64,000 nucleotides of DNA from Asterochloris sp. CNOR1 (Eukaryota > Chlorophyta > Trebouxiophyceae > Trebouxiales > Trebouxiaceae): the NCBI GenBank assembly GCA_963969365.1, contig OZ017756.1, forward strand, positions 1,798,001-1,862,000, in the 5' to 3' direction. The translations under genes and the position numbers were made by a program. The number at the start of each line of letters is the position of its first letter. Position 1 is the stretch's first letter. Below, one piece after another: positions 330 through 61,200 of the stretch. A model generated the notes under the pieces. It was not told the origin of the DNA. It saw nothing but the letters and a program-made list of their open reading frames with translations, and searched no databases.

Positions 330-3300
330 ATGACACAATCTGACCCAACTTCAAGGATGCAGCAAGGTATCTCTCAGTACCTTCATACCGGTCAGCCAGC
401 TACATGTGGCCGGAGGCCAGCAGCAAAGCATGCGCCTGCTGCCAAGCGCCTCAAGCTCTGGCGAGCGCCTCCAGTGTGCCAGTGGCACACCTCCGTCCCT
501 TCAGCAGTGAACCAGCAGTCATCAGGCATAACACTATATACAGATGACCTGCAGCAGCCTCAGGCCCCTTGCCCCACAGCACATGCGGCTGCCTTTGCTG
601 GAGTGGCAGTCAGCCCAAAGGTCCTGGCTGTGTTGGCTGGCCTAGCCATTCTCGTGCTCATCATCAAAAAGGTTCTGGACACCCCTTCTCGTACATACAA
701 CGAGAATGTGGGAGATGAATATGATTGCTGGACGCAAGAGGGGATTTTGGAGTACTACTGGGGAGAGCACATCCACCTAGGTTACTACACAGGTGAGCCA
801 CATGTGCACAGAGCAGAGGTTGCATGGCCTGCACCTGTCTCCATCTGAGGGCGGGCACAGCAATGCTGCCTGCCGGTCAGATGGCACCTCGACAGCTGTG
901 CTGCAGCCCTGGCAGCTGACAGGGTGCTCAAACCTGGCAGGGTGTTGGCCAGAATTGCAGGGCCTGGGCAGCTGATCCTATTGACGCAAAAGCTGAGTCA
1001 GTCTCAGTCCTGCTGCAGTTCCGCCCTGTCGGCTGTGAAGTGTCCTGCTTACTCCCCAAGGGGTCGGCCCTGCATGAGCCTACTGCATGTGATGAGAAGC
1101 TGTGGCGCCGATCTTCCTGACTTCTCAAGCCATTGTCGGCTCATAGTACCCAGTCCCTGCACGGATCCTGTCCCTGCTGCGGTTAAGGACAGGCAGATAG
1201 TCGTGGTCGCCATATTGCACATTGATCAGTTACTCTTCTTGCTGCAGATGAGGAGAGGCAGCGGGGCTACAAGAAGAAGAACTTCAAGGGAGCCAAGCTG
1301 GACTTCACCAACGAAATGCTCAAATGGTCTGGCGCCCAGCAGCCAGAGAGCATTCTTGATGTGGGCTGCGGCTTTGGGGGCACCAGCAGGCATCTGGCCG
1401 CCACATTCCCGCAGGCGAAGGTGCAAGGTAGGCACTGCTGAGTACATCTCGCAAGTTGCACGCTGGCTGCCCCTTGTGCTTGCTCAGCATCAGTAGCAGC
1501 GGCAGGTGAATCGCTTGCGTGCATCAGTGCACATACATCTGCATGGACAGCACATGCTTTGCATGGGGCCAACATGTGGTCACAGCGCTGTCTGAGGAGT
1601 GCACGGCAGCTACAACACTGAGCAACAGTGTTTTTTAGCAGGCACAGTGGGCACCTGCGCTGGCACTGCGACTGCCATGTGCGGCCAGGGTCCTGCTGCA
1701 AGGAGTGTGCTGCGCCAAGCTACCACATGGTGGGCACCTGCAGTGGCACTGCGGCTGCAGTGTTCAGCCAGGGTGATGCTCTGATGCACCTGGCAACCAC
1801 AGCCTGCATTGCAGCCGATACGCCCAAGCCTGGTCTGCGGTGGGCTCTGTCTGTGGCTCATAGGTTGCTGCAGGTAACATTGTGCTGCGCCAGGCATGAA
1901 AGATTGAGGCTGCAGGCATCATGCTGTGCAAGGTGCAGGTGCGTCACTTCACCCAGCTGGTCCATAAGTGCAATGCGGGTGATGCTGCCAGAGCTGCAGC
2001 TGCGCCAGCTGCAGGCGTCACACGTCTGCAAGAGCAGTACAGGGAGGTAGCTCCTGGCAGCCAGCAGATGTCATCGCAGCAAACTGTGGGGGCATCCCTG
2101 CAGGCACCATGCTGTCTGGGGAGCTTGACGGCACCCAGCCACCGTGCTGCTCTGGACTGTCGTGGCCTGCTGGCCCCCCGCCAGGAAAAGTAGCCAGCCT
2201 CAAGATGGTCATCGACAGCACATGGACTGTCGCTGCAGGCATCACGCTGAGCAAGGAGCAGGTGCGCAGGGGCAGCCAGCTGGCCCAGGAGCGCGGCCTG
2301 GGCAACTGCAGCTTCCAGGTCATGAACGCCCTGACCATGGACTTCCCTGACGATTCGTTTGACCTGGTGTGGGCCTGCGAGTCGGGGGAGCACATGCCCG
2401 ACAAGGGGAAGTACATTGAGGAGATGGTCCGAGTGCTGAAGCCAGGTGGGTGCATGCTGGCTCCCTGCTGTGCAGCCGATGCGGGTGGAGCTGCAGCTCA
2501 GATTGCTGCGGCCATGTCCAGGCCGCAAGTCTGACGACCAGCTGGGGTGTCGGCAGGGGATGAGACGGCTTATGCTCTCATCCTCAAGAGTTGGGGAGTC
2601 AGGCCAGGTGCCTGTTGCCCGTTGCTTGTAGAGAGCTGTGCGTCCCTGCACTTTGCCCCCTGTTGCAAAGACTGCAAGCTGCATGCAGTGCTGTCTGCTG
2701 GATCCAGTCAGGCATGAGCTGGAACAGGTGGCGCCCTCGGTATTGCCTTCTGGTGTCAAGTGGTCACAACAGCCCTCAGCTGAACAAGGCACATTGTACT
2801 GCACAGGTGGCACCCTGGTGATTGCATGCTGGTGCCAGCGTGAGGAGACCCCAGAGCGCCCTCTGACAAAGGAGGACAAGGAAAGACTGCAGTTCTTGTA
2901 TGACGAGTGGGCGCACCCCTTCTTCATCTCAATTGAGGAGTTTGGCAGGCTCATGGAGGTGAGACTGCTACAGCTGGCTCCCCGAGGTGTGGGTAGAGCT
3001 CAGTGTTGCTGCGCATGCACGGCTTGCACCAGCCAGGACAGTCTGGCATACAAGGGCGCTAATCACAGCGTCCAGCGTCTGCCTGTGCTCAAGCCCGCAG
3101 CTGAGCAGCAAGCCAGAGCCTGAGCACCCCGCTGCACTGGCAACAAAGGCCTGCTGCCCATGGCACTTGAGCCACCGTCCACACCATGCACAAGCAGAAA
3201 TTTTCTGTATCCCAGGCACAGATCATGAAGCACAACACTCAAGCGTTGGCAACACTAGCCAGCTTCTTGAAGTTCTCCTGGCTAGCATCACTGTCCCACA

Positions 3301-3720: not shown

Positions 3721-3892
3721 AGTGTTCAGTCTTGACTTGGAACACTCAACTAATTCCTTTGAGCCTGGTCTCCATCGAATCGACTTTCTGAACTAGCACA
3801 CAAGTTCTGTGGAATTTTGGTTGACATTTTGAGTCCCAATCCCGAGTGCCCTATTCTTCCGATACTGCACTGCTGGCTCAGGATCAGCCGCC

Positions 3893-6800
3893 ATGCAGAC
3901 ACTGAACAGCCTGTTGAGGCAGCTGCCTAAAACTTCAGGGCCTTCCATGAGCACGACATTTCTGTGGCGGCCATGCCTGGTTCAGGCAGCTGCCAGGACT
4001 CAGAACCTTGCCGCCTATGACATTTACTCCCTGAGGGTAATGGAGCAGTGGTGTTTAACAAATGAATAAGCATGCAACAACAGCTGCATGTCATGCTGCA
4101 GGTGGTGGACCTGAAGGACCAGCTGAAACAGAGAGGCCTAAAGACATCAGGACTCAAGCAGGAGCTGCAAACACGACTGATGGATTCCATGCAACATGAT
4201 GCTGAGGCGGCTCATGCCATGCCTGGAGGAACTGGCAGCAATGGGACTGCCTTCTCAGCCAACGGCCTTCACCAGGCAGCTGGCAATGGCAATGCAGCAG
4301 GGCTGCACACATCTACCCAGCACTCAGCAACTGCAACTCAGGCACAGACACCGCCAGCGGTGAAAAAGCCCAAGCTCAGCAAAGGCAAGACCACCACCAA
4401 AAAGGTAGGTCCATTGCCCTGCACCGCGGAGCTGCTGCCTGCTGCATGTCATGAAGCTAAACAGCAGGCAGTGCAACGAAACCAATGAGCCTGCCCTGTT
4501 CTCATGCTAGATGTTCCAATCTATATGCCTCAGCCTGAGCTACTGTTTCGGCGCTGCAGTCGGCCAAGAAGACCGCAGGTGCAAGCGCTGCAGAGGCGGG
4601 TCCCAGCGGCTCCTCAGCAGTTGCCGCCTCCAGCCCAGCAGAACCTGTCAAGGGCAGGCCGCAGAGGCCGCCTCCACTGGAGATGTGGAGTACTCGTGAG
4701 GAGATGACTCAGGAACGCAGCCTCAAGTTCGACAGCAATGGGTCGGGCATGCAGATGGCGTTCCTGGGGACGGGACATGGATCCATGCTGGCACCAAGGT
4801 GGACCACTTGCTGTTGGTGTGGGTTACAGTGTCAGACTGTCTGTCTAGCCAGCATGCAGGCTCAAGCACTAAAGGTGCTGGCATTTGGGGCACCACCAAA
4901 GTAAGGGGTCAGCTGTTGAAAGGCATCACGCTGTACACGAGCACAATGCTTGCCGATGTGGGTGAGGGATGCAGATGGCGTTCCGGCAGACAGATCTGCT
5001 GGCAAGGGGGTGGACAATCGCTGCTCACTGCAGGCGTCCCTGCTCACTGCAGCCGCCCTGCTCAGCTTGCAGCAGGAATCCCTTCTGGTGCAAGAGTCTG
5101 GGCCTCTGTTGAGCAGGGCAATGAACTGCAGGGCCATGGCCCCGGTACAGCAGGCATGCTTGTGCGCTGGCCACCAGCAAGGCAATGTCCAGCAATCCTG
5201 GCCCATCAAGCTGACAGTCTAGGCTTGCCCACCTGCCCAAGCTGAGTCATGCAATGCTTTTGTTGGCCCAGTGCCACGTGTTGCCCTGCTTTTGCACTCA
5301 CACACCCCTTGTGCTGCAGATCGATGAACTGCATGGCCCTGCGCCTGCCCAAGCAGACCTGGCTGTTTGAGGCTGGGGAGGATTCTCAGCGTCAGCTGGT
5401 GCAGCAGCCCATCCTGAACCAGGGGCGCGTGTGTCGCATCTTCATCACCAGCTGCGATGCCCACAACCTGTTTGGCCTGCCAGGTCGGCCTTACCTGCTG
5501 GCGCTCCACCCAGCCTGGTCTCAAGCAGTGATGTATGTCTGGGACTGCACCAATTAGTGTGCGCTGCTGAGTGGGGCTTGTCTGTTGGCACCCAGCCTGG
5601 GCTTGTTGGCTGGTGTACTACCCAGCCTGGCCCCACCAACCCTCGGCTTGTCTGCTGACTGTACCACTTCGAGCTCATGCTGCCTGCCAGTCAGGATGTT
5701 TTGTCATGCCTATGTCACCGTGTCCAGTTGCTTGGCAGTCGCGTGACACTGGCTGGCATGGCAGCTCTGCTGCCTTTGTCAACCTTAGACGAGGCATGTC
5801 GCCCCAAGCACTGTGAAACGCCAACAACGAAGCCATTCAAGTTTCAGAGCAGCATCAGCCCCTCTTGTGTGCTTGTGCAGGTTTGGTGTGCACCATCAGC
5901 TGGTCACGGGACCGGGGTCTGATTGATGCAGACTTCCCTATCCACATCTATGGCCCTGAGGGGGTTGCTGACTACATCAGGTAACAATGATGTCTGCAGG
6001 GCACTTCTGGCAAGCTGTCATGTGCTCAGGTGGCCGTGTCCCAACCCAGCAGGCAGCAGGCCTGCCTTAGCATGCTGCACACCGCCACAGACTAGCTTCA
6101 GGAAGTTGCCATGCACCTTGCCACCCGGCTCAGCTCCTATATGCCTGAAGGGCCTGCTTGGTTCCTTCTTGGCACATCTGGCAATCCCTGATGGCAGGGC
6201 TCCTGGCAGGGAATTGCCTGGAGTCCTGCCATCAGGATTGGCCAGAGATGTTCCCGTGGTTGCAGGTTTCGGTGGTCATATAGTTGCCTGCCTGCAGGAT
6301 ACTGCTACTGCTGCCAGGAGCCCACAGCAACAACCCTATTCTAGGCCAGTGCACATGCCCTGCTTGCCTGAAGGACTGGGCTGAGACTACGAGGCACCCG
6401 AAATGTGAAGCACTCCTGAAGTGGCCGTTGTTCAACTTCTGTGGCTGCCGCCTGCTTGTAGGCAGATGCTGTAGCTGTCAGGAATAGCTGCATGACACCC
6501 TCTTCTCAGCGTCTGTTTGTAGTGCCTGTGACTCACCCATCTTGCTCCGTGCAGGACCATGCTGCAGCTGTCAGACACTTACTGCGAGGTCCCCTTCATA
6601 GTGCACGAGTTCACGACACAGGCCTGCAGCCCTGAGCCCGAGTGCATCCTGCCGCGAGCGCGCTTGTATCGCGTGAGGTTGGCCCCAGACCAGCTGAACC
6701 CTGAGGGTCATTACGACGCAGACCTGTCCAGGGTGAGGCAGACAGTGCATGCTGTGCATGCTGCCTCAGCGCCTGTGCAACACCCAAGCACTGAACTGGA

Positions 6801-9800
6801 TATAATCCCGAGGGCTCATCATGAGGATGACGTCTTCGAGCTGGGCACGCCGGGCAGTGACTGCCTTGCAGCGCCTGACTTGGTAAACCCTAAGGGTCCT
6901 GTCTACAAGCGGAGCAGTGGTGGGGACAGCACCCCCTGTCAGCCCCACTGCGCCTCCTGATGCTGGCAACGGCCTTGATGCTGCACTCCTCTAGCTGCCT
7001 TGTTACGTCTGGAGGTCTTCACTGCATCAGTCTAGGGTCTGCCTGCAACCTGCGCTGTCGGCGCAGGGCAGAGGAGGATATGGCATGCATGCAGAGTGCA
7101 AGGGGCCCCATGCCCAAATGAGCTCCGAGTGAGACAGGTTTCTGCATAGGGTCCTGCAGTGAGGCTGATGTGCAGCTGAGCTGGCTGACAACGGCTGAGG
7201 CACCCCATCGCATGTGAATCAAGCAAACATCTCTGGCTTGTGATGATGCAAACAATTGTCCGTACCATCCGACCCTTTTGTGGGGTATGATGAGGAACAT
7301 TGTGGAATCTTGTTAGTCTGAAGCCACACATGAGCATGCAGCCTGCATCAAGCGGCCACTACTGTGCATGCTGGCCACCAGTGTGCATCACGCTGGCATC
7401 CGTCTGCATGCTTTGCAGGGCACTTCCATGCCTGTAATGCTGCTCAAGCCACCTGATATGTGTGCAGCATTGCTGCCCCACCACCCTGCAGGTGCTTTGA
7501 AGCAGTCAGTGTGCATGCAAGCCTGAAGCACTTCGCCTGAATGCTGCTACAGACATCAACAGGGCTGCTGGCCGTGCCTGCATCAACCTGTCTGTATGTG
7601 GGCCTCAAGCACTTCACCTGCCGCCATGTACCTTTTGGATCTGCCCTCAGACACTTGATGAAGATCTGTGACCTGGTGCTTGTCAATGCATGGGTTTCTG
7701 CACTGTTTATGATGAAAAGGCTTCACAGGTTTGTGCTTCATGGTCATTCATTGCGCAGGTGTGCCGCAGCAGTCCTTGCCTGTGTCACTGCAGGCATTTT
7801 TGGACAGGTACCAGCAGAGGTCACGAGCCAGCAGGCGCACAGCAGACATGCGAGCCTCAGTCTTCCCCATTCCTCTGCCCAAGCCTGGTGAGAGAGCCTT
7901 AGCGAGCTGGGCTGTGATGCATCACCACACTCAGTGGCAGCACACAGCACAGTGAGGCATCTGTTTCAGTCACTCCCTTTCACCGGCAGTGACAGCATGC
8001 AGCTCCCCGCCACGTCTGGCGGGCCCACAACCCTGCCTCAAGGGGTGGTCAGTGTGCAGCCCTCTGAATCCATGTGTCCACTCACTGTCCCAGGCCAGTC
8101 AGCCTGGCTTCTCATGTCACAGGAAGCACTGACCAACAGCCACCCATGAGGTGCACGCTCCTGGAGCCGCTGAAGCCACCATGAACATGCTGAAGGCTGC
8201 GCAGGCTCACAGCCTGACCAGAACAGTGTCAAACATGCACTCACTCATGCTGCAACATGCAGGTGACCCGTCCTTGTCTGCTCAGGACCTGCCGCCAGGC
8301 TCACTGTCATGGACGCTGAGCTGTGATGACGAGTATATAGTCACAGCCTTTCAGCAGCCAGCTCACCGTCCCTGTTGGGGATACCGAGTGCGGGAAGCGG
8401 ACAGGTGGGTCCCTCGTGTTGGCTGCTTTGCAGTTGCACTTGAGTCTTTCTCCGCCTCAAAAGCGGTGTTGTCCCAGCATGCAGAGTCTGGAACTTGCAG
8501 CTATGCCGCCACCGCAGGAGCAGTCAAGCAATCACCCCTGCCCTTAGGCCGGTGTCTGGGCAGCCATCTGTTCATGAGGCATGGCGCATGAAAGCGGCGG
8601 TCTGCGTCCACCTGCAACTGGAGTAGTGTCAGTTTGAATGCTGCCGCTCATGTTGAGCATGCATTCTGCAGGACTGGGAAGCTGGACCCTGAGAAAGCGA
8701 GAGCATTAGGTGTCATGCCTGGCAAGGGTTTTGGGACCTTGAAGGCTGGCATGCCTGTCAATAATAAGGGTGAGCGCTGCCCAAGCAGCAAGGCATCCTG
8801 CAGTTTTGCAGTGACTAACTGCTGCAATACATGATTCAATCTGCTGGCAAGGAGCGCTGACCGTTTTCAACATCAGCCGCGGCGGCAGCTGCCTGCAGCC
8901 TCCTCGACGCTGAGTACATCACTGCCCCTGCATGAATGCCAAGCCACAGTCAGCCTGCATGCTGTTCCCCAGGCATGTGGTCCCTGCGCTACATGCTCAC
9001 TCCGTGCACAACGCTGAAGACATCTCATCGCCTGGCCGCAATCGGGGCAATTGGGGCAACCAGTTGCACTTGGCAAGGACCTGTGCTGCAGCTGGAGAGA
9101 TTGATGCACCCTGGGAGAGACTGCTGAGCCCTGAGACAGCTGCTGACCTTCACTCAAAGCATGTACATTCCCCTGCAGACCCCTGACAACATGGTGTTTG
9201 TCTGCAGTTTGAAGACACAACTCACCCTGAATAGCTGCTGATGAGCCCAGCAGTAACAGCATGCCTACTTCCTGTGCTTGCTGATGAGCCCAGCAGTAAC
9301 AGCATGCCTACTTCCTGTGCTGCGATTGTAGGGCTGCACAGCTGGGATAGCAGACGGACTGCCCGGCTGCCTCAAGGCCAGGCAGGCCCATGCGGCACGG
9401 TGCATGACTGCAGCTGGGGAGACCATCCAACCCTTGGCAGCTGCTTGCCTGCAGCCCCCCGCAAGGCGTGCTCAATTACTGCGCCGCAGCTACAGGGACA
9501 GTTCAACTTCAAGCATGCACAATCTTTGCAACTTGCTCACAGCTGGGTGCCTGCCCGCAGCTGGGGAGACCATCCACCCCTGGCAGGTGCTGGACGGCGT
9601 AGTTCGCGGCCGCACTGTGGTGGTCCTGGGGACTGCAAATGAGCCCATGCCTGAGCAGAGCATGGCAGAGCTCAGTCCCCATATCCGAGAGGCTGATGTT
9701 CTGGTGACCAGCCCAGCCATGCAGGTGAGTAGCTTGCTCTTGGCCCTGCTGCTTTTGTGTCGTGCTGCAACTTGACCTGTCATGGGAAACAGCAGTCTGG

Positions 9801-10246
9801 CAGGCAGGTTTCGGGCCCTGCCTCATGCAGCACAGTGAGATGGCGTGCGTCACAGCATCCGTGGCGCCCCTGGGAGCGCATGAGATGCTGCATCTGCATG
9901 CACATCTGTGGCTCTTGTGTTCCAGCACTTCACCTGCCCTTCAATAGGGTGCATGTTTGTTCGGGCTGCAGGTCTCACATGCAGAGGCCAAGGGACTTGC
10001 ACCTCGCTATGTGGTGGTGACAGGCATGTCAGCAGCAGAGAATGTGCGAGACGTGACACAGTAAGTTGCTAGAGTGCTTGCTTCACATCTGCTGGCTCAC
10101 GGCTGTGCACCCTTGCTTATCCATCAAATGTGTGCCTGGGGTTTATCTGCAGGCAAGCACAGTCAGTCTGGGAAGGAGCTTCAGTCCATGTGCCTGATGA
10201 CTTGGAGATGTTTCATCTTGAGCGAAATGTTGCCAGCAGCTTTTGA
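3893..10246 (+). CDS. SAP domain-tRNase Z-like fusion, probable pseudoenzyme
   Basis: Twelve exons keep phase: 3893-4036, 4102-4404, 4560-4798, 5320-5483, 5881-5980, 6555-6732, 7794-7887, 8263-8404, 8672-8769, 9561-9724, 9972-10060, 10153-10246 (602 aa). Residues 1-48 resemble an organelle transit peptide. Residues 49-80 are a SAP nucleic-acid-binding motif (VVDLKDQLKQRGLKTSGLK). A K/A/S/P-rich linker follows, then a metallo-beta-lactamase/tRNase Z fold: FLGTGHGS, CMALRLPKQTWLFEAGED, IFITSCDAHNLFGLPG, LVCTIS, IYGPEGVADYI, SDTYCEVPFIVHEF, GKLDPEKARALGV. The zinc motif of active RNase Z (THxHxDH) reads TSCDAHN, the later GDT reads GTAN, and the HEAT-like motif reads TSPAM. tRNA 3' cleavage is therefore unlikely; a binding or scaffold role in an organelle is inferred. 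The 3' end lies in the large duplication and has a broken copy at 20.7-21.4 kb. Confidence 0.78.
9237..9322. repeat. 43-bp tandem duplication in an intron
   Basis: A unit starting GCTGATGAGCCCAGCAG at 9237 is repeated at 9280 with no visible mismatch over most of its length. It lies in the intron between the ninth and tenth exons of the SAP/RNase Z-like gene, at the left edge of the large duplication. Confidence 0.85.
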
Positions 10247-10309
10247 ACAGTTCACAGCCCTACAGTGGCTGGACACATGCAGCAAGTGTCAATAATCAGC
10301 CGACAACCA

Positions 10310-11952
10310 GTTCTTTAGGGAGGCATGTCGGCAGTCCCACATGGGACATGCTCATTTTTGGCAGCTGGAAGACATTTGCTGGCAAGTCCCTCAGCAAGCA
10401 GGAGGTCATCACTCAGCTCTTGCACGTCTGAGACGAAGCCAGACCAATGATTAATAATGCCTGGCCCAAAACGGTTGATGTACTTTTCATATTGCTCCCT
10501 CGATTGTTCTCAGCACGGCAGCCGCCCACTCTTTTGGCTTTCCCTTCCTGACTGACTGCGCTGTCTGTCTCTGACCCCTCACCTGTGCATGCCATTGTCT
10601 CCAAAAGTTGCTTTGCTGTCAATCCGGTTTACGATGTGGCCTCCCACAGCGATTGGCACCTGCACGCTTGAGGCACATCTCTCATTAGCAGGAAAGTGTT
10701 CATGGTAGACGAGCATTGACTTGACAGCACTGCACCCAGTCAGGCCCCTTTGCGGTGGAAGCTGCATGCAGTCAACAAATCACATGTGCGGTCTACCTGT
10801 AGCAATGCATCTGGTGTTGTGAAGTATCTCTGCTCCCGCAGACTTGCCTCTGTCCAGAACTCAATGCCCAGGTCAGCGAGCTTGCTGTTCAGCACTGCCT
10901 CATACTGGGTGCCTGCATCATAGAACCATCGGGCTTTGCATGCCTTGCCGGAGCGGCCTGCTGTGGAGGCATACAGATGCACTCTGTCACACCCAACTCC
11001 CTTCTGCTGTACAAGCACCAGTGTGGCCAGACTGTGCAGGGGATGGCATTGTTTAGCCTGGCTGGGAAGCAAGCAAGAGTAGGCAGCACCTTGCCTGCGG
11101 GAGCTTTGCAGGCAGGTGTCAGTCAAGCACCACAACCCCACCTTTCTGCTTTCTTGGTGCGTTGCATCGAGGACTGTACATGCACAGTCCACGCAGGTCT
11201 GAATGTCGCCAGTCAGGCGCTCCAGGAGCTGTTGGGCAGGGAGCTCCTCTGCAGGGAGGCTGGGGCAGGAAGGGTTTGGTGCGGGTCCTTCAGCAGCTGC
11301 GTGATCACCTGCTGATCACGGGCACTCTGTGCTGTCTGCATTTTGCTCATGCAGCCATGAGCAGCTGCTCTGGCCAACAGCACCCGTAGCACAGCAGGCA
11401 CCGCACAGCTGAAGCCGTTGTTGAGCGGCTTGTGGTGCAAGGGCCGGAATCGGGCAATCAACATGGCAAGCTTGTTGCTGTACAGCGTCCGTGCAATGTG
11501 CAGCCCCCACTGCTTGCCTTTGGTAAGGACTGCAGCTGCAGCGGCAGGCATTTTAGCAGCTCCCTCATGAAGATGCAGGGCTGCATGCTGGCAGAGGTCG
11601 CCAGCTCCAAGATGTCAGCTCCAGCCTGGTACCTGCGCTGCAAGATGCTGTGAACGTTCGGTGGCCAGGCTGCTGCGCGCCAAGCCTCACCTGGCAGTCA
11701 GCAATGCAATGTTTGCCCGTAGCGCTGGCATGCTGTGCTTCACTTGGGCCATGGCCTCTTGCAGGTATATGCTGAGGATGGTGTCATCTGAAGCCCTGCA
11801 GGCAGCAGTGCTAGGTCCCAAGGCATCCTGCGTGAGCAGCAAGCACATGTATGCGCCCACTTGAAGCTTTTGGCCAATGCTGGCCGCCATGGCCATGCAT
11901 TGCAGGGGATTCTCAAAGCATCAGCAAGGTCCGCATAGCTTTGCCGGTCCAT
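10310..11952 (-). pseudogene. CDIN1-like nuclease, decayed duplicate
   Basis: This copy matches the intact minus-strand CDIN1-like gene at 23158-21510. Its first three exons (start at 11952) lie in the nearly identical block and are open. The exon equivalent to 22575-22331 lacks one base after the LLKDPHQT segment (11255-11270 region), which shifts frame into an early stop. In the last exon a further shift follows the DDLLL segment. The tryptophan before the catalytic DSK in the other copy is arginine here (RIDSK). The TPDALLQ and DSK motifs themselves are still readable. It is probably non-functional beyond its first exons, but a short transcript sharing the 5' half of the intact gene is possible. 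Confidence 0.75.
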
Positions 11953-12879
11953 TGCTTCAGCAGTCTGGCACAGCTCAGATCAGCATAGCGAAAGAAGGAA
12001 AGATCTGCTGCCAAAAGATATCTCCCGAAATGCGCAGATGATCTGCAGCCCCAACAACCCAATGTCCGTGTCTTGATCTGCCCTCTCAGCAGCCCAGCTT
12101 GCGCCTACCTTGATCACCCTATACTGCCCCTCTGGCAGCTGTCTGTTGATGTGTTCAGGACAGCATTGTGTGCAATGCACATTGGACTCAGGAGTTTGTC
12201 CTGGATGTTGCCGTAAACAAGGTGCCTCAGATGCATTGGCAGCCTACACAGGGACATGCCAAAGCGAAGGATGTGAGGAGCTTGGAATGTGCAACAGAAC
12301 CTGTTGTGCTGTCACCTGATATGGCTGCATTTGGATCTGGTACAGATGGATGCACGCAGCAGCGTCCCTGGCTGGGCCAATGGCTCCTGAGGCGCTAACT
12401 GTAGTTGAGATCTTCATGCAGGACGCCACTTGCTTGCCCTTCAGGCTATGGCCCTGTGGGCAACTACCCTGCATGTTGCGCTGAGGCCCTTTTCGACATG
12501 TGACAAATTGGTAGGACACATGCATGCCATCCCTAGCAGCGTGCACACAATCGAAGCTGTCTGCACCTGGCGGCAAAAAGAAATGCTATCTGTCATGTGA
12601 GTGATGTGAAAGCCATGCCGCCACAGCTTCGCATTGGGCAGGTGGTGGTAACATTGGGCGCCCAGACATGCCAAGGTGTCTGTAGACTTCTGCCCTGGGT
12701 GGGCAGTATGGCGTATACGTACACCTGGAGACCAGGGACTCTTCAGGTGCTGATAGCTGCTTGAGTTGCAATCTTCAGCGGAGCACCGCTTGGCACTTAC
12801 ATGACTTCTTCCTGTCTACAAAGACACGAAGTAATGATGAAGTTTAGCCCCAAGCTGAACCTTCGCACGCAGCGGCACT
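11953..12879. other. Spacer between CDIN1 copy and VPS16 stub
   Basis: No gene is recognised. Most of it (to 12683) is nearly identical to 23159-23889 in the right copy, although apparently non-coding. It would contain the promoter of the CDIN1-like copy and the 3' flank of VPS16. Short ORFs here have no family signature and are identical in both copies only because the DNA is. Confidence 0.5.
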
Positions 12880-13470
12880 CTAGCGCGTGGCTGCTAAAGT
12901 AATTCTGTCCTTGAGCTGCGTCACAGCTGCTGAAAAAGGGCTCCCGACACCCACCATGCCCTGAATTCGTGTCAGCATGGCAGAGTCCTGGACCTGCAGG
13001 CACATAGCAGCAGTGGCAGGAGGAGGGGAAGGGCAGCTTTCTGCAAAGGGCCTGCTGCCCTCAGCATGAGAACTTTTGTGTTGCCTGCTCATCTGGCATG
13101 CACAGTGTGTCTTCACGCAGGCTTCAGCGGGCTGGCAACAAGGGCTTGTGTGATGCAGACAGCTGAGCATTTGGGCAACGCATCCATGCTTTGGAACTAC
13201 AACAGTTTGTGTCAGGCTTCACACCTGCGCAGCTGCCTCTGCAGCCTCCTGCAGCAGGCCAATGGCTGCGTACTCTTCAGCCTTTCGTGAAGCATCAGCC
13301 TGCTGATTAGCCTGCAACAGCAGCCGTTCACCCATTTGGGTTGCAACAAGCCAACCGCACACACCAGGCGACGAAGTCATCATCCTTGTGCCGCAAACAA
13401 AGGGTTCAGGCAAGAGCAAAAAGCTGGTAGCAGGCCTTGTGCACTCCAGAGGCTGGTGTCATTGTAACGG
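12880..13470 (-). pseudogene. VPS16 3'-end fragment (duplicate)
   Basis: The last two VPS16 exons are recognisable. The terminal exon is 12880-12993 and ends in the same LKDRIT-x-AATR motif and stop as the real gene. The penultimate exon, about 13225-13311, has lost 4 bp relative to 24425-24515, so LPDASRKAEEYA cannot be read in phase with the upstream splice. The next exon upstream (24664-24797 in the real gene) is absent because homology ends near 13470. It is a truncated by-product of the segmental duplication. Confidence 0.8.
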
Positions 13471-14179: not shown

Positions 14180-14210
14180 TATGTGGCTAAGGATCATCCT
14201 TAGCCACATA
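14180..14210. repeat. Perfect 15-bp inverted repeat, 1-nt centre
   Basis: Arms 14180-14194 and 14196-14210 are exact reverse complements around a single C at 14195. It lies 2 bp from a longer perfect hairpin. Confidence 0.95.
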
Positions 14211-14212
14211 TG

Positions 14213-15088: not shown

Positions 15089-15571
15089 TCAATGCTCAGC
15101 TAAATCTTGGTTGTCTGGCTCCAACATGTCCAGTTCAGTCATCCAATGGCTGCGAGGTACCTGAAGAAGGCACTGAGACCCATCCAACTGCGGATTGGTG
15201 TAAGTTAGCAGCTGCAGCGGCCACAGGAGTCGTGCTACTTGCTCTTGCAGATGCATGTTCTGCTGCTCATGTAGTGCTACTAGCCCGTGCAATTGCATCT
15301 TCTGATGTTCAAGTAGCGCCACTTGCTCTTGCAGCCCCCTGATCTGCTGCTGAAGTATCGCTGCTTGCTCTCGCAATTGCCCCTCTTGCTGCTGGAGTTG
15401 CGCCACTCGCTCTTGCAGTTGCATCCTCTCATGTCCAGCCACCCTAGCCCGCTCAAGGGCCTCCTCCAGAGCTGCACGTATCCTATCTCGGTGGCGTTGA
15501 GCTGCAAGCCTATTTTGGTGTCGCCTCATGTCAGATTGCCTGCAAACACAGGAGTTATCGACTGCAAACAA
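15089..15571 (-). CDS. bZIP-like basic coiled-coil protein
   Basis: A single open frame of 160 aa. After a short N-terminus comes a basic region NRLAAQRHRDR that fits the bZIP N-x7-R signature, then a long coiled coil in which a 14-residue pattern (L-x-EQVA-x-L-x-x-Q) repeats about five times, rich in Q, L and E. The internal Met at 15529 (MRRHQ) may be the real start, because TTTGCAG just upstream on the minus strand looks like a splice acceptor. It lies between LTR-like direct repeats, so it may belong to a mobile or captured unit. DNA binding is inferred from the basic region only. The C-terminal 35 residues are not recognised. Confidence 0.55.
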   Translation of the reverse strand: MFAVDNSCVCRQSDMRRHQNRLAAQRHRDRIRAALEEALERARVAGHERMQLQERVAQLQQQEGQLREQAAILQQQIRGLQEQVALLEHQKMQLHGLVALHEQQNMHLQEQVARLLWPLQLLTYTNPQLDGSQCLLQVPRSHWMTELDMLEPDNQDLAEH

Positions 15572-20449: not shown

Positions 20450-20702
20450 CTGCTGCTTTTTGTGCTGCAGATGTAGAGCTGCACAGCTGAATCATAACTA
20501 ACTAGCAGACGGACTGCCTGGCCGCCCTAAGACCAGGCAGGCTCATGGGAATCTCTCACGACATACACCTGCCCTCAGCTGGGGAGACCGTCCACCCTTA
20601 GCAGCTGCTTGTCTGCAGCCCTTCGCCGCAGCAAGAGGGACTGTCCAACTTCAAGCATGCTCAGTCTCTGCAACTTGCTCACGACTTGGTGCCTGCCTGC
20701 AG

Positions 20703-21410
20703 CTTGGGAGACCATCGATGGTGGATATCGATGGTGGATATCCACCCCTGGCAGGTGCTGGACGGCGTAGTTCGTGGCCGCACTGTGGTGGTCCTGGGGA
20801 GTGCAATGGAGCCCATGCCTAAGCACAGCATGGCAAAGCTCAGTCCCATATCCGCAAGGGTGTTTGATCTGGTGACCAGCCCAGCCTTGCGGGTGAGTAA
20901 GCTTGCTCTAGGCCCTGCTGCTTTTGTGTCACGCTGCAATCTGACCTGTCATGAACAATAACTGGCAGCCGTTTTCTGGGCATGCCTCACGCAGCACAGT
21001 GAGATTTGTGTACCTCACAATGCCCTAAGCGCTGGGAGCGTGTGAGATGCTGCATGTGCATGCGCATCTGTGGCTCTTGTGTTCCAATCACATCACCTGC
21101 CCTTCAATAGGGTGCATATTTGTTCGGGCTGCAGGTCCCACATGCAGAGGCCAAGGGACTTCCACCTCGCTATGTGCTGGTGACAGGCATGTCAGCAGCA
21201 GAGAATGTGCGGGACGTGACACAATTAAGGTGCTAGAGTGCTTGGTTCACATCTGCTGGCTGGCGGCTGCGCAGCCTTGCGTATCCACCAAATGTGTGCC
21301 TGGGGTCCATCTGCAGGCAAGCATAGTCAGCCTGGGGAGGAGCATCAGTTCATGTGCCTGATGACTTGGAGATGTTCCATCTTGAGCGAAATGAAATCTT
21401 GCCAGCAGCT
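20703..21410 (+). pseudogene. SAP/RNase Z-like 3'-end fragment (duplicate)
   Basis: Copies of the last three exons of the gene at 3893-10246. The first (20703-20892) keeps HPWQVLDGVVRGRTVVVLG, but a tandem duplication of GATGGTGGATATC sits near its start and a missing base after AKLSP shifts the frame. The second (about 21137-21225) keeps SAAENVRDV; its donor is altered. The last has a short insertion. No upstream exons are present, so it is a dead fragment. Confidence 0.8.
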
Positions 21411-21509
21411 TTTGAACCTGCGGGCCGTTCACAGCCCTTCAAAGGCGAATTCAGTGGCTGGACACATGTAGCAGGTGTCAATATTCAGCCGACAACCAAT
21501 TTTAAGAAC

Positions 21510-23158: not shown

Positions 23159-24079
23159 TGCTTCAGCAGTCTGGCACAGCTCAGATCAGCATAGCGAAAG
23201 AAGGAAAGATCTGCTGCCAAAAGATATCTCCCGAAATGCGCAGATGATCTGCAGCCCCAACAACCCAATGTCCGTGTCTTGATCTGCCCTCTCAGCAGCC
23301 CAGCTTGCGCCTACCTTGATCACCCTATACTGCCCCTCTGGCAGCTGTCTGTTGATGTGTTCAGGACAGCATTGTGTGCAATGCACATTGGACTCAGGAG
23401 TTTGTCCTGGATGTTGCCGTAAACAAGGTGCCTCAGATGCATTGGCAGCCTACACAGGGACATGCCAAAGCGAAGGATTTGAGGAGCTTGGAATGTGCAA
23501 CAGAACCTGTTGTGCTGTCACCTGATATGGCTGCATTTGGATCTGGTACAGATGGATGCACGCAGCAGCGTCCCTGGCTGGGCCAATGGCTCCTGAGGCG
23601 CTAACTGTAGTTGAGATCTTCATGCAGGACGCCACTTGCTTGCCCTTCAGGCTATGGCCCTGTGGGCAACTACCCTGCATGTTGCGCTGAGGCCCTTTTC
23701 GACATGTGACAAATTGGTAGGACACATGCATGCCATCCCTAGCAGCGTGCACACAATCGAAGCTGTCTGCACCTGGCGGCAAAAAGAAATGCTATCTGTC
23801 ATGTGAGTGATGTGAAAGCCATGCCGCCACAGCTTCGCATTGGGCAGGTGGTGGTAACATTGGGCGCCCAGACATGCCAAGGTGTCTGTTGACTTCTGCC
23901 CTGGGTGGGCAGTATGGCGTGCACCTGGAGACCAGGGACTCTTCAGGTGCTGATAGCTGCTTGAGTTGCAATCTCCAGTGGAGCACCGCTTGGCACTTAC
24001 ATAACTTCTTCCTGTCTACAAAGACAAGCAGTACTGATGAAGTTTAGCCCCAAGCTGAAGCTATGCATGCAGCGGCACT
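23159..24079. other. Spacer between VPS16 and CDIN1
   Basis: No gene recognised. It should contain the VPS16 3' UTR and the CDIN1 promoter. To 23889 it is nearly identical to the left duplication unit. Confidence 0.5.
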
Positions 24080-46100: not shown

Positions 46101-46150
46101 CTAGGGATCTGTACAGCAGGTACACAGGGCCTCAGTCCTTAACTTTCTGA
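37148..46150 (+). CDS. Large Q-rich protein with C-terminal STAT-type SH2 domain
   Basis: Fourteen exons in phase: 37148-37306, 37369-37488, 37983-38165, 38593-38657, 38816-39911, 40298-40535, 40963-41102, 41848-42273, 42981-43204, 44080-44229, 44502-44619, 45173-45295, 45686-45760, 46046-46150 (1073 aa). Exon 5 encodes a long Q/S/P/G-rich region with CAG runs (39205-39270) and a basic GKRIR patch. Exons 6-7 form a folded part ending in GDTIYVQYLVPTLIMSRQSD. Exon 8 has an SPRRSPRRSP basic patch, a likely nuclear signal. The last exons give a linker and SH2 domain: VVICGFGVDRLKAEAMLGNQ then GTFLVRPSLSLTGCLVISAV, with the phosphotyrosine-binding arginine in FLVR near residue 979. STAT-type linker-SH2 proteins are known in plants and Dictyostelium; a role as a phosphotyrosine-dependent nuclear regulator is inferred. 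Exon 4 was chosen by phase and is the weakest; the start is uncertain. Confidence 0.7.
40013..40168. repeat. 78-bp tandem duplication in an intron
   Basis: The unit beginning GTCTGTTGCTGCAAGCC at 40013 is repeated from 40091 with about two mismatches. It lies in the intron after the long Q-rich exon of the SH2 gene. Confidence 0.9.
43737..44110 (+). repeat. Tandem array of SH2-gene exon-start copies
   Basis: The true exon edge at 44080 (codons for VFHPYKLGRLLE) is preceded by diverged copies with edges near 43967 (IFQSKEGRLLK), 43851 (VFHTFLQLGVLL) and 43737 (short, GGAGGTTCCACACC). Spacing is about 113-116 bp. Each of the first two has its own CTGCAG acceptor-like site. Confidence 0.85.
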
Positions 46151-46725
46151 TTGTCAAGGTACGCTTTAGAACATCTTAACAGCCTCCAGCCCGGCACAAA
46201 CAGCATGACGGAGAGGGCAGGTCCAGAGCTGAGTACGCAGCTCCACACAGGAAGCCGCAGCAGAGTGACTTCTGCAAAGGCCCACCTACGGTTATTGCGG
46301 CTGTGCCCTCGTACAGGGGCAAGGGAGCAGCACTTCTGGCCAGACTGTGTGTAATGCGTTGCCGGACCTGTGTATGACTAGACACATGCTGATTGTGGGG
46401 CTGGCAGCATGTGAGAACTTCTGACGCTGCGATACGCTTCCACCCTTTCCTGCCGTCAGCACTTCCTTCCCACACAGTGTGCACTTTCCTGGATAATCTG
46501 ATTGTCTGATTCAAGGCAAGGTCCAGGGAGTGTTCCGCCCACAGCATGAGATTTGATTCTTTCCTGTTTACGTTGCAAGACTGTATTGTGCAAGTTTCAA
46601 TGCAGCACTTCATTGTCAAAGTTTGAAGCCACTCAGATGCCCATTGCTATGATGACTCTCACTGTTGACTTCGCTGAATTAGCACTTGCCTGGAAGCCTT
46701 TAAAATGGGTATGAGTAGGAGGGAA
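46151..46725. other. Convergent 3' flank region
   Basis: A gap between the convergent ends of the SH2 gene and the UPF0235 gene. No coding-like frame or known RNA was recognised; it probably holds both 3' UTRs. Confidence 0.4.
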
Positions 46726-49644: not shown

Positions 49645-52600
49645 ATGTTAGCCTGGCTGATTGGCACCTGGGTTGGTATACTGGCCGGCTGTGTGGTGAG
49701 ACAAAGCAACTGCATGTGACTAATTCCTCATGCGCATGGCATGAGTATGTTTGCTTGCTGCGCTGCTTCCACTACTTCTGTCAGCTGGCGCATGCAGACA
49801 CAACCTTGGTGCTCAGCAATCCTGTTGCAGAAGACACCAGTTCTGCTCCCTCATCAGTATCTGCTGCTGTCACTCTGGCTTTGCAGGCTGGCTCATACCT
49901 ATTGAAGCCTAAGGCAGTCACCAACTATGACGCTCTGGATATCTCAGCCGACATGGACGACAACAAAGAGCCCCCCCTGGGCAAAGACGGCAAGCCACTG
50001 CCTGCCATGGTAGAGGTGCTGTCCATGGCCCCGCCCTGGGCCAAGTACCCTGACTATGAGAAGGTCCGCAGCTGGGGTCATTGCAGGCCATCAAGCTTTG
50101 ATCTTGGCATGGAAAATGAAGGAGGCAGCACTGCTTTAGTGTGGCTCTCAGGAGGTGTCAGTGGGCGTCTGCTGCTGAGCAAGCCACTTGCTGAGCTGCA
50201 TCCCATTGCCAGTAGCCTGCAGCGGTGGCAGTCAGCAGGCAAGAAGCAGTCTGCTGCCGAGCATGGCAGGAAGGGTAAAGGCAGCTGGCGTGCCTGGACC
50301 AATCGCCAGACTGCCCTGTGGCTGAGCCATGCTGTGCATATCCTGCTATGCACACGAAGGGGAAAGACAGCTAGCATTGCCTTGGCCTTCTGCCAGCAGT
50401 GCCTGACATCCCGCAAGCCCCTCTGCGCTGCAGACTCTGTGGCAGAGCAGCGCTGTGATACTCATGCTGTGCAGAAAGGGCTGGCAGGCTGCTGTCAGCG
50501 GCTTGGCCCGCTGCCACACATGCTTGGGACATGATGCAACTACGTCTGTTGCAGACCCTGTGGCTGAATCATGCTGTGACGACGCTGTGGCCCTTCTACA
50601 ACAAGGCAGTGGCCAAGCTGGTGCTGGAGCAGGCCAAGCCCCAAATTGACGAGGCCATCAAGCCGGTGGGTCTGTGCTTGTACATCCCAGATTGCAGGAC
50701 GCTGGTCAGCAGCCAATTGCCTTCTTTAGGGGGATTATCGATGCAGTTGGTCCAGACAGTGTACACAGAAGCTCAACTGCCGTAGCTCAAGTTCCAGATT
50801 GCGCACGCGCTCAGCCGCCACAGCGCAATGTTCAATCGCATGCGTCCTTGCAGCATGCTCTCGCATTTAGCTGGGACAGCTGTCTGCAGGCACGCACCAC
50901 CTCATATGGGGGGACTGCAAAACAAGGCCTGCCTTGTGTTTAGATGACCAATCCCAATGCTGCCGTACGTGCAGCACTCCCTCCATGGCTTGCTCTCAAC
51001 GCTGTCATGGTTGGCTGCCCCGTGCACAGCTCCCCTGCTCAAGCTGTGCTTTGAAGGGTGTCACTCTGCCTGCGCTGACTTGCCATGAGCAGCCCCTAAA
51101 GAAGTCAGGCGCTTCAGGCCACCTTCCATTGGCCCTCACACCAGAGGGGCCCAGCTGCCCGGTGGGATGATGGAACATGGCAAGATCACTGCCCTGCCTG
51201 CAGCACTGTATGAGGCAGGCTCTTCAGGCCGCCCCTCAACGGCCCTCACACCAGATGCCCCCGGCTGCTGTTGTGTCGGAGTGAGCCTAAGACATTGGTA
51301 TCTTGTCTGCAGTACCCCTTCATTGAAGCAGTCACCCTTGACGAGCTGGACCTTGGCACCTTCCCCATGTCTGTGATGGGAGTCAAGGCCTATGACACAT
51401 ATGGGGATGACAAGGTCATCATGGAGGTGCCTGTCAGCTGGGGCAGCAACTGCAAGTAAGCCTGCCCAAGTTGATCATTGCCTGAAAGATGCAGGAACCT
51501 ACCAGGCGGGGCAGCACCTGCAGGGAGGCAAGTACTGGTGTCCAGAACTGCAGAGGCTGGGGGACTTGCAAAGGCTGAAGCGTGGAGTTAGCAACTAATA
51601 TCGAGATGCATTGTATTCTGAAAACCACAGACAGGAAGCCTGTATGTGGCTGTTAAGGACTATGTCTTGTCAGCTGGCTGCAGTAGCCGCAAGTGAGTCT
51701 GCTGAAAGGATCGTTCAATGATGGCCACCAACTGCTATTGAGACACATGCTGGCCGTCAGCCTGGGGCTGTGGTGGTGATAGCCAGGGGTCCTGCTGGTG
51801 GCTGTCGAGCACCTGCAGCTCTTGTCTTGGAAGTCTGTGCCGTCTGGCTGTGCAGCCCCTGCAATTGAGCCTGACAACGTTGTCCCTGGAATGCAGGATT
51901 CGAGCCTCTGCCAGGCTGGCATTCGCAGGGTACGCAGTCGACATCCCCGTGACTGTGAAGGACCTTCAGGTGCGCGCAATGTAATCACATCGAGGGCTGT
52001 CTGGACCGCCTCGTGCTCCAGTGACTTTCACCGCCCTGCCAGCCGTGGCTAAGGTCATAATGCACCCTGTCAAGCATCATGCTTCTGTGCTTTGTGTAGT
52101 GGTGCCACCCTGCACTGGTTACAGTCACTGCGTCTCCCTGCACCTACACCTGAATTGTGCAGCAGAAATGTACTCGATCTCTGGCCCTGGCTCCTGCCCT
52201 GCTGCAGCCGGCAACCTGAAGTGCACTGATTGCATCTTTGCTGCGTCTGCCCAGTCCATCGCCCTGCCCTGCAGGCCAAGGCAGTTGCCCGCGTCTCCAT
52301 CGCCCCTCTGGTAGACACCATTCCCTGCACAGGGGCAGTGGACATCTCTCTGCTGGAGGCCCCTACATTGGACGTGTCACTGTGTCTCATTGGCGGGTTC
52401 GACCTCTTAGCGCTGCCCCTGCTGAGCCAGGCAGCCCAGTTCGCCCTCAAGATGGTGAGGCTGCTGGCGCTCTCATGGTACTGCTGAGCCTTATCCCCCT
52501 AAGACTGGTGCTGCTCGTTGAACAGCCGCAGAAACCCAAGATCCCAGCAGCAAGCCTGTCTCCCTGCCGCACTCGCTTGTGCTGCAGCACAGTGCACCTG

Positions 52601-58279: not shown

Positions 58280-61200
58280 ATGAGTTGCGCAGGGCTGGGA
58301 GCTCCAAAGGATTATTATGATGTTCTGGGTGTCAGCAAGAGTTCCTCTGACTCTGAGATAAAGAAGGCATACTACAAGCTGGCCAAGCAGTATCACCCAG
58401 ACACAAACAAGGTAAACAGTTTGTCAGGGATGCCTTGAGGAAGATGAAGCCTGCTTCCAGCGCCCTGCTGTGCCGCCGGCCACAGCAGGCCTCACAAGTT
58501 TTGGGCTGCATAGTCACTGCACCGATGTCCCTGCAAGCTGGCCAAGCAGCATCACATGCACACGCAAGGTGAGCAGGTTGCTGGAGCTGCCTGGAGGCAG
58601 TTTCCTGGAGGCAGGCCTCACAGCAGTTGGGCTAATAAATGGAGCAGCCTTGAAGCATGCCTGGGGTGGACTGCCTTGACACAGTGAAGCGTTTTCTGTC
58701 TTGGGGGAGCCCTTGAGGCAAGCTGCTCTCTGGGAGGATGGGGTAGGGGCTGCTCACTGCAGACACATGGTGCCTGTCTCACGGCAAGCCACTCCAGTGG
58801 CAGATTGGGGCAGCCCAAAGTAGGAGCAGCCCAGGGTATTGCCACAACCCAAACAAAATGCTTTGACAAGAAAGTGCTGCCTGCCTCACGGCATGCGCCG
58901 CCAGTGCCAGACAAGGTGTCGGATCTGTCTGTGCAGAGGCAGATGTTCTCTGCCCTGTTCCCCTCAGCTCGTGAATATCATCAGCGCCTGCCGGCCGCAG
59001 GACAATAAAGAGGCGCAGCAGAAGTTCCAGGAGATCAGCACAGCCTATGACACCCTGCGGGACCCTCAGAAGCGCTCCATGTATGACCGGGTGGGGCCTG
59101 AGGGGGTGGAGGAAGGCGGTGGCATGGGAGGCTTTGGGGTGAGCTTTCTTTGTTCAGGGTCAGCCCACTTGAACGTTGCTGTGGCTCACCCAGTTGAGTT
59201 TGTTTGGCGTGCAGTGCCGGGTGCTTGAACATAGCACTCAAGACAGCACAGGGCACAGGGACTGCTGCTGCCGGCAACATCTGCAATGCACCCTGATTTA
59301 CAGCAGTTGCCCTTGCCTTGCAGCTGCTGCAGCAATGCTCATCAGACCAACCCACTCCAAATTAGCTTACGAGTCATCTCAGGTCTCATGTGACTTTCTC
59401 AAAGCTTGTGCCTCCCGCAGTTTGGCGGCGGAGCCCGCCAGGCTACCCCCGAGGAGGCAGAGGAGCTCTTCAGAACCATGTTTGGCGGTGCCTTTGCTGG
59501 CGGCAACATGGGAGGCTTTGACCTGGGGTCCATGTTCGGCGGCGGCGGCGGGCGCCAGGCCTTTCGGCGAGGCCCCGATCTGCAAGTGCGGGTCAGGATC
59601 CCCTTCAGGGAGGCAGTCAAGGGCACACAGCAGGAGCTGAAGCTTCCCATGAGGGATGTGACGGGGCGGCAGACCACCAGAAGCGTGATGGTCAACATCC
59701 CCGCAGGTGCGCATACTGGCGCAGCGCTGAGGTCATGTCCAGAAAACAACAGCAGTGGTGGGGGGTGCAGCAGCTACATCACAAGCTCTAGGGGTATGCC
59801 CATATAAGAGGCGAGGCCTGATGGATTGGGGTGCTGCAGCAGCAGTCAAGGTGCCCAGGCATCGTCCAGATGGGAGGGTAGACTGGATGTGGAGGTTGCA
59901 GCAGCTCACACAATTGCTGCTGCTGCTGGCAGAAGGGCTTTTAAATGTCTGCAAAAGGTCCTCAGAGGACAGGAACGACAGACCACCAGGAATGTGGCTG
60001 CACGCAGTCCATGCAGATGGGCAGGCTGCAGTGCCAAGCTTTGGGCAAGCGCACTCAATTTGTCATCTCAGGGCAAGCCAAGCCTGACATCACCTGTGCT
60101 ACAGGCATGTAGCGGCAGCAGGCGCCGCAACGATGTCCTGCACCACCTAGCTGCCCATCTATCCTCAGCTGGTGTTTGACATCTGCCCCACAATGGGCAG
60201 CAGGGCAACACTGCGGTGCTGCACATGCACCTCAGGACTCCCAATGCTGCTGGCTTTGTGGTAACCCATTGTTGCATGTGGCACAGCAAAGGTGACCCCC
60301 CTTGCAGCAGCAGGGCAACATGGCCCACATGCATCTCAGCATGCAAGGTGGCCTCACTTGCCCCAGGCATTTTGTGTGTGCAGATGCTGCAGGTGCGCAC
60401 TGAGGTTGGCCCCCGCTTCCGCATGGCCTGGGTGCTGCGCATGCACCTCAGAGGTCACACTCATCACACATGCTGCAGGCATCTCGCGGGGGCAGGTCCT
60501 GCAGGTTCACGGCGAGGGAGGCGCCCCGCGGCAGCAGGGCGGTTCGCCTGGTGACCTGGTGGTGGAGGTGGACGTGCAACCTGACCCCACCTTTGAGCGC
60601 GTGGGGGACGACCTGCATGTCAAGCTGGCCGTGGACTTCACAGACCTCGCACTGGGAACCACTGCCAAGTGAGTGGGGGAATGAACATTGCGCCGCTTGT
60701 TGAGTGGGTGCCTGCCTAGCTGCTGCACAGTGCAGCCTTTTGGAGCCTGAAGCATGCCCAGGAGTCAGGGCCGCCCCTGCATTCTACAGACATAACTACC
60801 AGGTGTGGCGCATCATACACAACCAGAAAGCCTTGCTCCACAACCAAAGTGCCATGCTGCTGCACAGTGAAGACTGCTACATATGTGCATGGCAGCATTC
60901 ATGCGAGCTGTATTCAGCTGCTGACTGCTCTGTGGGAATCTGCCTAGCCCTTTTAGGCAGTCAGGGGCCTTTGCCCAGCTGATTGGCTGTCAGTAGGCCT
61001 TGCCTGTCAGTGGACAGGTGGCACCCTGCTGGGTCCTGGTCATAGCATGCTGCAGTTCAATGCTCCTGGCTAAGCGAGCGTACGTTGTCTCCTCCAGGGC
61101 AGGGGGGGCGCCCTGCTGGATCCCAGGCGTGACAGATCCAGCATGCTGCAGCACTCCTGTCTCTGATAAGCCAGCATGCATGACCGCCCCACCGCTCTGG

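Follow-up and report, generated by a model that had tools for sequence, protein, structure and literature searches.

Diverged copies of exon edges in Asterochloris introns and their probable origin in DNA-repair duplications

In plants, the repair of staggered breaks is accompanied by filler sequence. Small tandem duplications are attributed to staggered double-strand breaks or paired nicks in two reports (PMC8355091; PMC8316200), the available parts of which cite earlier work on repair duplications (Vaughn and Bennetzen, 2014; Messer and Arndt, 2007; Schiml, 2016). In the first of these, tandem duplications resulted when overhangs of 50, and others down to 43, were filled in, and natural insertions in humans and plants are cited (PMC8355091). 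The copies of exon edges described here, from introns of the lichen alga Asterochloris, resemble such products: they are local, in direct orientation and tens of bp long. They differ in that the events are old, often carry long non-homologous spacers and are read as fossils at exon edges, and in that the host is a green alga.

Other systems invite comparison. When introns are gained through tandem genomic duplication or double-strand break repair, duplicated splice-site sequence and repair-type insertions are likewise involved, according to the available text of PMC3443670; in Asterochloris, however, it is introns already present that grow at one end, and repeats at the far end are not above chance. 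Introners and introner-like elements likewise tie repeated sequence to introns, whereas the Asterochloris spacers are unrelated between loci and hold no sequence common to many introns, the copies were recovered by comparing each intron with the exon edge beside it, and none turned up in foreign introns. Exon-like copies in a neighbouring intron are also left by tandem exon duplication with mutually exclusive splicing, but the Asterochloris copies are truncated, non-coding and beside their own edge. For Asterochloris, the genome paper puts introns at 9 per gene; the part of its text available does not mention exon-edge copies (the word 'tandem' has no hits there). The literature searched, mostly at the level of listings and including the available parts of PMC6652019, PMC3443670, PMC8316200 and PMC8355091, describes no fossil record at exon edges. 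The preliminary description knew of no system of this form; the class of mutation is already known.

Exon-edge copies in adjoining introns

The material comprised 314 kb of the genome of Asterochloris glomerata that includes the window, a 64-kb stretch of DNA. Gene models came from our own unsupervised HMM, without RNA support, which counts against the explanation preferred below. Exons shorter than 60 nt were left out of the edge, decay and pair tallies. Edges whose intron or query was too short were also excluded. Controls were dinucleotide-shuffled introns, slices of foreign introns and between-gene comparisons of the first 40 exon bases, the last setting the match threshold for acceptor copies (local score >9.0, the 95th percentile). 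Refinement let copy positions move by up to ±15 nt, a slight bias toward a match; the actual shifts were 0-9 nt.

Copies of exon edges in the adjoining introns (echoes) are real and exceed chance. A diverged self-copy was found at 55 of 1054 exon edges across the 314 kb, against 0 of 5270 trials with shuffled introns, a control named beforehand as a potential refutation, and 0 of 1054 with foreign-intron slices. Repeat pairs at 20-600 bp, counted in 264 kb, are diverged and direct in 109 cases against 3 inverted, the local placement and orientation of break-repair duplications. Near-side windows of 289 introns gave 18 acceptor and 20 donor matches at a score of at least 14 (0.8 and 0.4 expected), and far-side windows of the same introns showed no excess (1 and 0 against 0.4 and 0.4). 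Only 5 of the 55 edges have an echo at least 90% identical. Offsets of 80-120 are the most frequent in the window; in the pair list the peak lies at 80-140.

Most of what was first reported from the window is borne out: 20 of 22 acceptor-side copies score above the control threshold, the exceptions being methyltransferase copies 2104 and 2014 (scores 7 and 8, below 9.0), and both donor-side examples hold. The emphasis on acceptors does not survive, since echoes lie at 29 acceptor and 26 donor edges (p=0.79) and the phenomenon is therefore not acceptor-specific. The proposal that introns grow by duplications spanning the splice site is sound insofar as local duplications lengthened introns (median 414 at copied edges vs 269), but it does not extend to introns generally. 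At least one echo occurs in 54 of 659 introns (~8%, ~1 in 12; 19 of 103 in the window alone), so that 'introns built from copies' is an overstatement. Echo-bearing edges are enriched threefold in the window (20/176 vs 35/878 elsewhere, p=0.0003), which our best explanation does not account for and which counts against it.

The VPS16 gene, on the reverse strand, encodes a protein with a 99% match to Astpho2 protein P0001. Its true acceptor edge at 32703 (32667-32725; exon 32449-32703 in the gene model) is the source of echoes with first exon bases at 32788 (32761-32792; exon score 11; 91% similar to 33078-33109), 32891 (32855-32903; score 21; 78% over 37 exon nt), about 33000 (32979-33007; score 17; 93% over 28 nt) and 33105 (33070-33126; score 20). 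Edge 28139 is echoed at 28208-28240, with a spacer lacking detectable homology (flank p 0.59), and again at 28295-28327 (score 15; inner end approximate); edge 25881 at 25950-26035, where the intron flank also matches; edge 25210 twice within 25283-25424 (scores 16 and 17); and edge 27165 twice, more weakly, within 27217-27338 (scores 10 and 12 against the control 9.0; ends approximate). At these five edges (32703, 28139, 27165, 25881 and 25210) the protein is continuous at the join in four relatives, with no insertion. As originally proposed, it is the outermost copy that codes, and those further inside the intron are non-coding. Newly found on this strand are echoes of acceptor edges 24797 (24870-24896; 89% over 27 nt) and 30854 (30914-30957; by sequence comparison), and donor-side echoes of exon ends 32449 (32237-32301; 82% over 49 exon nt) and 30677 (30529-30568; by sequence comparison).

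Further echoes lie on the forward strand. In the SH2 gene, an array of ~115-bp tandem units precedes exon 44080 (43728-44010; whole-unit homology, 67% in an alignment of 283 bp at offset 115), acceptor edge 45173 is echoed at 45046-45100 with a homologous flank (p 0.023), and a newly found donor-side echo of exon end 44229 occupies 44333-44370 (by sequence comparison). The E-Syt acceptor edge 50555 has two echoes within 50314-50458 (scores 19 and 11), and the methyltransferase edge 2239 has one at 1902-1971 (76% over 70 nt; score 22). The two donor-side examples are the end of DnaJ exon 1 (58372-58443), echoed at 58531-58600 (84% over 38 exon nt), and a SAP/RNase Z exon end (4739-4771), echoed at 4959-4991 (82% over 33 nt). 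Duplications confined to introns also occur, as a 51-nt block repeated at offset 83 (1647-1780; 82%) and as a young, filler-free tandem duplication (40013-40176; 78 bp x 2.1, 96-98%).

Blocks, spacers and contiguous tandem units

Typically, an echo consists of a similar block of ~45 nt, made up of the splice site and mostly 20-55 nt of exon, followed by unrelated spacer. Block-length quartiles are 35, 43 and 52 nt, the tens of bp of break-repair duplications. The echo of SAP/RNase Z acceptor edge 9561 (9399-9452, forward strand) illustrates this arrangement: ~15 intron and ~38 exon nt are followed by a ~93-nt non-homologous spacer, and a 99-base query over the spacer matched, in the genome, only itself and a segmental paralogue. 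This was one of two spacers searched against the genome, and both found only themselves or the segmental paralogue. Comparison of spacers with one another (score >=15) gave 6 direct and 5 inverted matches among 1113 pairs, against 2 after shuffling, and insertion of an element is rejected on account of this mutual unrelatedness. A similar anatomy appears away from exons, where 15 of 20 wholly intronic or intergenic pairs are gapped, the remaining 5 overlapping head to tail. Of 28 flanks examined in 14 of the gapped pairs, 3 reached p<=0.1, the chance level.

The preliminary description had instead proposed tandem duplications of ~100 bp across the splice site, taken here as contiguous units followed by neutral decay. 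Whole-unit homology is indeed present in some arrays (SH2, 43728-44126; locus L009, 6177-6413), the offsets peak where such units would place them, and the clearest young duplications (40013; 9236-9321) are plain, filler-free tandems, which also weighs against the explanation we prefer. Homology over the whole offset is nevertheless confined to a minority. Flanking intron is homologous at 14 of 45 edges (31%; 25 acceptor and 20 donor edges examined) and without detectable homology at the other 31, whereas simulated whole-unit duplication at acceptor edges predicts flank homology in ~80%. The exon part has an observed median of 39 nt and exceeds 60 nt in 10 of 54 cases, against a median of 60-63 and about half above 60 in the neutral simulation; at the 9414 echo of SAP/RNase Z the exon part matches at 87%, yet homology ends past ~15 nt of flank (flank p 0.955). 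The simulation rejects whole-unit duplication with decay as the sole cause, and as a general account we regard it as unlikely.

The limits of the copied exon part might seem to mark a minimum intron tail, an idea we discarded because block lengths of 35-75 yield similar exon parts without extra rules. In acceptor units (offset <=200) the exon part is at most 0.45 of the offset in 28 of 31, the other three lying on predicted exons of <=15 nt, while in donor units it exceeds 0.5 of the offset in 7 of 26. Exon bases -80 to -41 (392 tested) gave 7 matches at >=16 against 4.3 expected and 4 at >=24 against 0.7, a test that is not clean, as at least one match came from a slicing fault at a locus start; the match at L026 8293 (exon part 82) is true.

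Random placement and survival at exon edges

We consider it probable that the echoes are old, random duplications of ~35-75 bp, many with filler, seen in those survivors that kept the outermost splice site in use; scars of DNA-repair duplications are their most likely identity. Short direct duplications of this size would arise randomly in DNA, and the copies would often be parted by tens of bases of unrelated filler, as a staggered break or a pair of opposite nicks is filled and joined. Those wholly inside introns would be neutral. A block straddling an exon edge would bring a second splice site, and survival would require that the outermost site stay in use, a choice that would depend on the context of the exon, the inner exon fragment becoming intron and drifting. 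Because the exon itself hardly changes, edge copies would stay readable longest, recognisable for about twice as long as intron-only duplicates, and exon edges would come to resemble hot spots. The arrays in VPS16 and the SH2 gene may reflect repeated events at one edge or expansion of whole units.

Random placement can match the observed proportions. With blocks of 35-75 and ages of 0.20-0.35, simulation gave an edge to intron-only ratio of 3.2, with exon-part quartiles of 26/40/48 and intron-part quartiles of 2/16/23; observed were 44 edges (offset <=250) against ~15 intron-only pairs (offset <=200), with 31/39/47 and 6/16/46. Six other settings, tried before this age range was selected, had given ratios of 0.6-2.1, so that one setting in seven fits, and the fit requires nearly all events to be old; both points count against it.

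Duplication might instead be directed mechanistically to exon edges, for example by nicks linked to transcription, R-loops or nucleosomes. Edge pairs outnumber intron-only pairs by ~3:1, above six of seven random-placement settings, and 45% of blocks end no more than 12 nt from the splice site, a share that was 20-29% in the first random-placement settings, tried before the best-fit one, and that also weighs against the explanation we prefer. The ratio is, however, also reached by random placement with old ages, and intron-only and intergenic pairs are similar in anatomy. Random placement with preservation anchored in the exon can thus produce the edge preference if most events are old, and splice-site-directed duplication, which is not required, appears quite improbable.

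Duplications of this kind offer introns a way to lengthen that involves neither transposon nor introner. Tentatively, this lineage may have passed an episode of intense break-and-fill mutation that lengthened its introns. The echoes could then serve as a natural experiment in splice-site choice: duplicated sites, in some cases no weaker than the originals, would have been ignored at donor and acceptor alike, and recognition would be set across the exon, not through the strength of a site or transcription order. The 29:26 survival speaks against choice of whichever site is transcribed first, bearing in mind that only surviving events can be observed. The fossil record at exon edges is readable because the exon holds one copy of every pair fixed, and the tolerance rate of splice-site duplications and the symmetry of donor and acceptor survival are testable in any genome.

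Neutral decay and the remaining alternatives

Echoes decay like neutral DNA. Mismatch at codon positions 1, 2 and 3 is 0.19, 0.23 and 0.23, with no excess of third-position change (p 0.26), and reaches 0.39 at CpG sites against 0.20. This CpG-biased decay argues against an error-prone birth of the copies and for time as the source of the divergence. Of the splice dinucleotides, AG survives in 17 of 25 copies and GT in 11 of 20, where identity squared predicts 0.64 and 0.62 (p 0.84 and 0.50). Listed against our best explanation are AG retention of 68% where simulation gave 75-77%, and fourfold sites (0.27 vs 0.21), which indicate little exon drift.

Selection for a role in regulating splicing or as decoy exons, as the force that retained the copies, would suit the scarcity of young copies and a comparison between two intronic copies, in which exon-derived parts outscore spacers (17 pairs; mean 12.5 vs 8.9; controls 6.4 and 7.1). 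Against it stand the even mismatch across codon positions, the decay at CpG sites and the chance-level retention of splice dinucleotides, and we hold it very improbable. Alternative or mutually exclusive exons derived from exon duplication deserve next to no credence: the gene finder placed exons or exon starts at three or more of the copies in the window (28241-28327, 25966-25992, 2104), but the copies span mostly the first or last 20-55 nt, show none of the coding constraint expected of such exons, and are absent from VPS16 in the JGI-derived model and four relatives. Birth of the introns themselves by duplication, through tandem duplication of AGGT or through an insertion that creates target repeats, is just as hard to credit; similar donor and acceptor windows (score >=16) occur in 8 of 568 introns against 1.1 expected, but in 6 of those 8 a predicted exon only 9-30 nt long, or the decoy exon 28241-28327, is concerned, and far-end copies stand at chance level.

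The SAP/RNase Z echo of edge 9561 recurs in the segmental paralogue (20568-20609, forward strand); being present in both paralogues, it probably predates the segmental duplication.

Gene models and the reality of edge copies

The 64-kb window belongs to a 56.4-Mb genome in 21 contigs. Genes were modelled with an unsupervised HMM gene finder built on the window plus 200 kb, which returned 48 genes with 536 introns of median length 274 and an acceptor consensus of CTGCAG|G; 50 kb of sequence added later gave 659 introns in 314 kb, and all counts share the finder's error of fusing adjacent genes and at times taking a copy for an exon. Pfam backs the methyltransferase, GFO/IDH/MocA oxidoreductase, SH2, SMP+C2 (E-Syt) and DnaJ genes of the window. 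VPS16 from the window matches a JGI Astpho2 model in EukProt at 99% identity over the query, and the next hit is Trebouxia at 56%; the source is thus the lichen photobiont Asterochloris glomerata or a very near relative. In the gene called SAP/RNase Z in the preliminary description, a SAP domain was the sole Pfam domain found, so the RNase Z label is that description's own. The SH2-domain protein (37148-46179) is glutamine-rich and carries its SH2 domain at the C-terminus (PF00017, E 7e-8). Such a protein is unusual in a green alga. Outside the gene models, 15226-15437 is a diverged 42/84-bp tandem array whose unit is a multiple of three.

Introns adjoining some exons hold diverged copies of the exon edge (splice site plus exon bases). 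Ungapped 30-base matches far exceed background at offsets of 80-120 in the window, and at offsets of 60-150 they form 30 regions there and 45 in the 200-kb sample, versus none in either at offsets 1000-1090. Sensitive self-comparison of 264 kb found 109 direct and 3 inverted repeat pairs 20-600 bp apart. A systematic scan of 314 kb detected copies at 55 of 1054 edges, versus 0 of 5270 shuffled-intron trials; slices of foreign introns matched at 0 of 1054 edges. Acceptor-side copies named in the preliminary description largely withstood control, with 20 of 22 exceeding it. Overall, 54 of 659 introns carry a copy (19 of 103 in the window), and median intron length is 414 at copied edges versus 269. 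Edge-copy density is ~3x higher in the window (20/176 edges) than in the 250-kb sample (35/878; p=0.0003).

Anatomy of the copied block

Among introns of at least 260 nt, copies occur far more often than chance predicts at 40-140 nt from their own edge, but not at the far intron end. Donor (26) and acceptor (29) edges are copied at similar rates. The exon part of the similar block has a median of 40 nt and exceeds 60 nt at 4 of 55 edges; for exon bases +41 to +80 on the acceptor side, copies are not above chance (0/397 versus 0.6 expected at a score of at least 16). Flanks outside the splice signal are mostly unrelated, with gapped homology at 14 of 45 edges and ungapped identity at 12-17 nt of 0.31 (acceptor) and 0.34 (donor). 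True tandem arrays are a minority (the array beside an SH2-gene exon at 43728-44126; 6177 in the sampled locus L009; the window at 40013); contiguous tandem copies of ~100 bp, as proposed earlier, are not supported as the general form. The clearest block case lies in the SAP/RNase Z gene (+ strand), where an echo at 9414 matches the acceptor edge at 9561 over ~15 intron and ~38 exon bases (exon part 87%) and no further. Pairs that are entirely intronic or intergenic have a gap between blocks in 15 of 20 cases (for example L009 3910, L013 6126 and the window at 58768).

Decay, preservation and a possible origin

Edge copies decay neutrally: mismatches are independent of codon position, CpG sites decay twice as fast, and splice dinucleotides are retained about as chance predicts. 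The copy's splice site equals or outscores the true one at 7 of 25 acceptor edges and 4 of 20 donor edges, so site strength alone is not always enough to tell them apart. Exons have drifted slightly, since mismatch is 0.27 at fourfold sites versus 0.21 at fixed sites (p=0.011). Young copies are scarce, with at least 90% identity at 5 of 55 edges, as if the copy-making process had slowed.

Tandem duplication of a complete unit with neutral decay predicts a median exon part of ~60 and flank homology at ~80% of edges (simulated on acceptors only); both fail. Duplication of blocks with filler, placed randomly over introns and edges containing the splice site, reproduces the observed exon-part length in all seven settings (median 33-43 versus 39). 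With blocks of 35-75 nt and ages of 0.20-0.35, the ratio of edge to intron-only copies is 3.2, versus 44 to ~15 observed; six other settings fall short (0.6-2.1). Because random placement of old blocks reaches the observed ratio, the apparent edge preference would be a preservation effect, provided that most events are old.

We infer that edge copies arise by ordinary break-repair duplication, survivors being those that would still splice at the outermost site. A rule favouring the first-transcribed site would predict much heavier loss of acceptor than of donor duplications. Surviving edges (29 acceptor, 26 donor) lack this bias, which is suggestive, though not proof, of splice-site choice made across the exon. 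Earlier work describes small duplications of this size from staggered breaks (PMC8355091, PMC8316200) and reviews their role in intron gain (PMC3443670). Literature searches returned no account of exon-edge echoes as a genome-wide trait, and the relevant passages of the Asterochloris genome paper (PMC6652019) do not mention the copies.

A segmental paralogue

A segmental duplication (9308-13455 / 20453-24647) holds the 3′ end of the SAP/RNase Z gene and 3′ parts of VPS16. It is ~10% diverged outside a core (~11408-12707 / 22614-23913) at 99-100% identity, which suggests recent conversion of the core. The 9414/9561 echo is also found in the paralogue and so probably predates the duplication; conversion between the two paralogues could alternatively have carried it. 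In the second copy, two 13-nt units form a 26-nt insertion at 20714 that breaks the exon near its edge.
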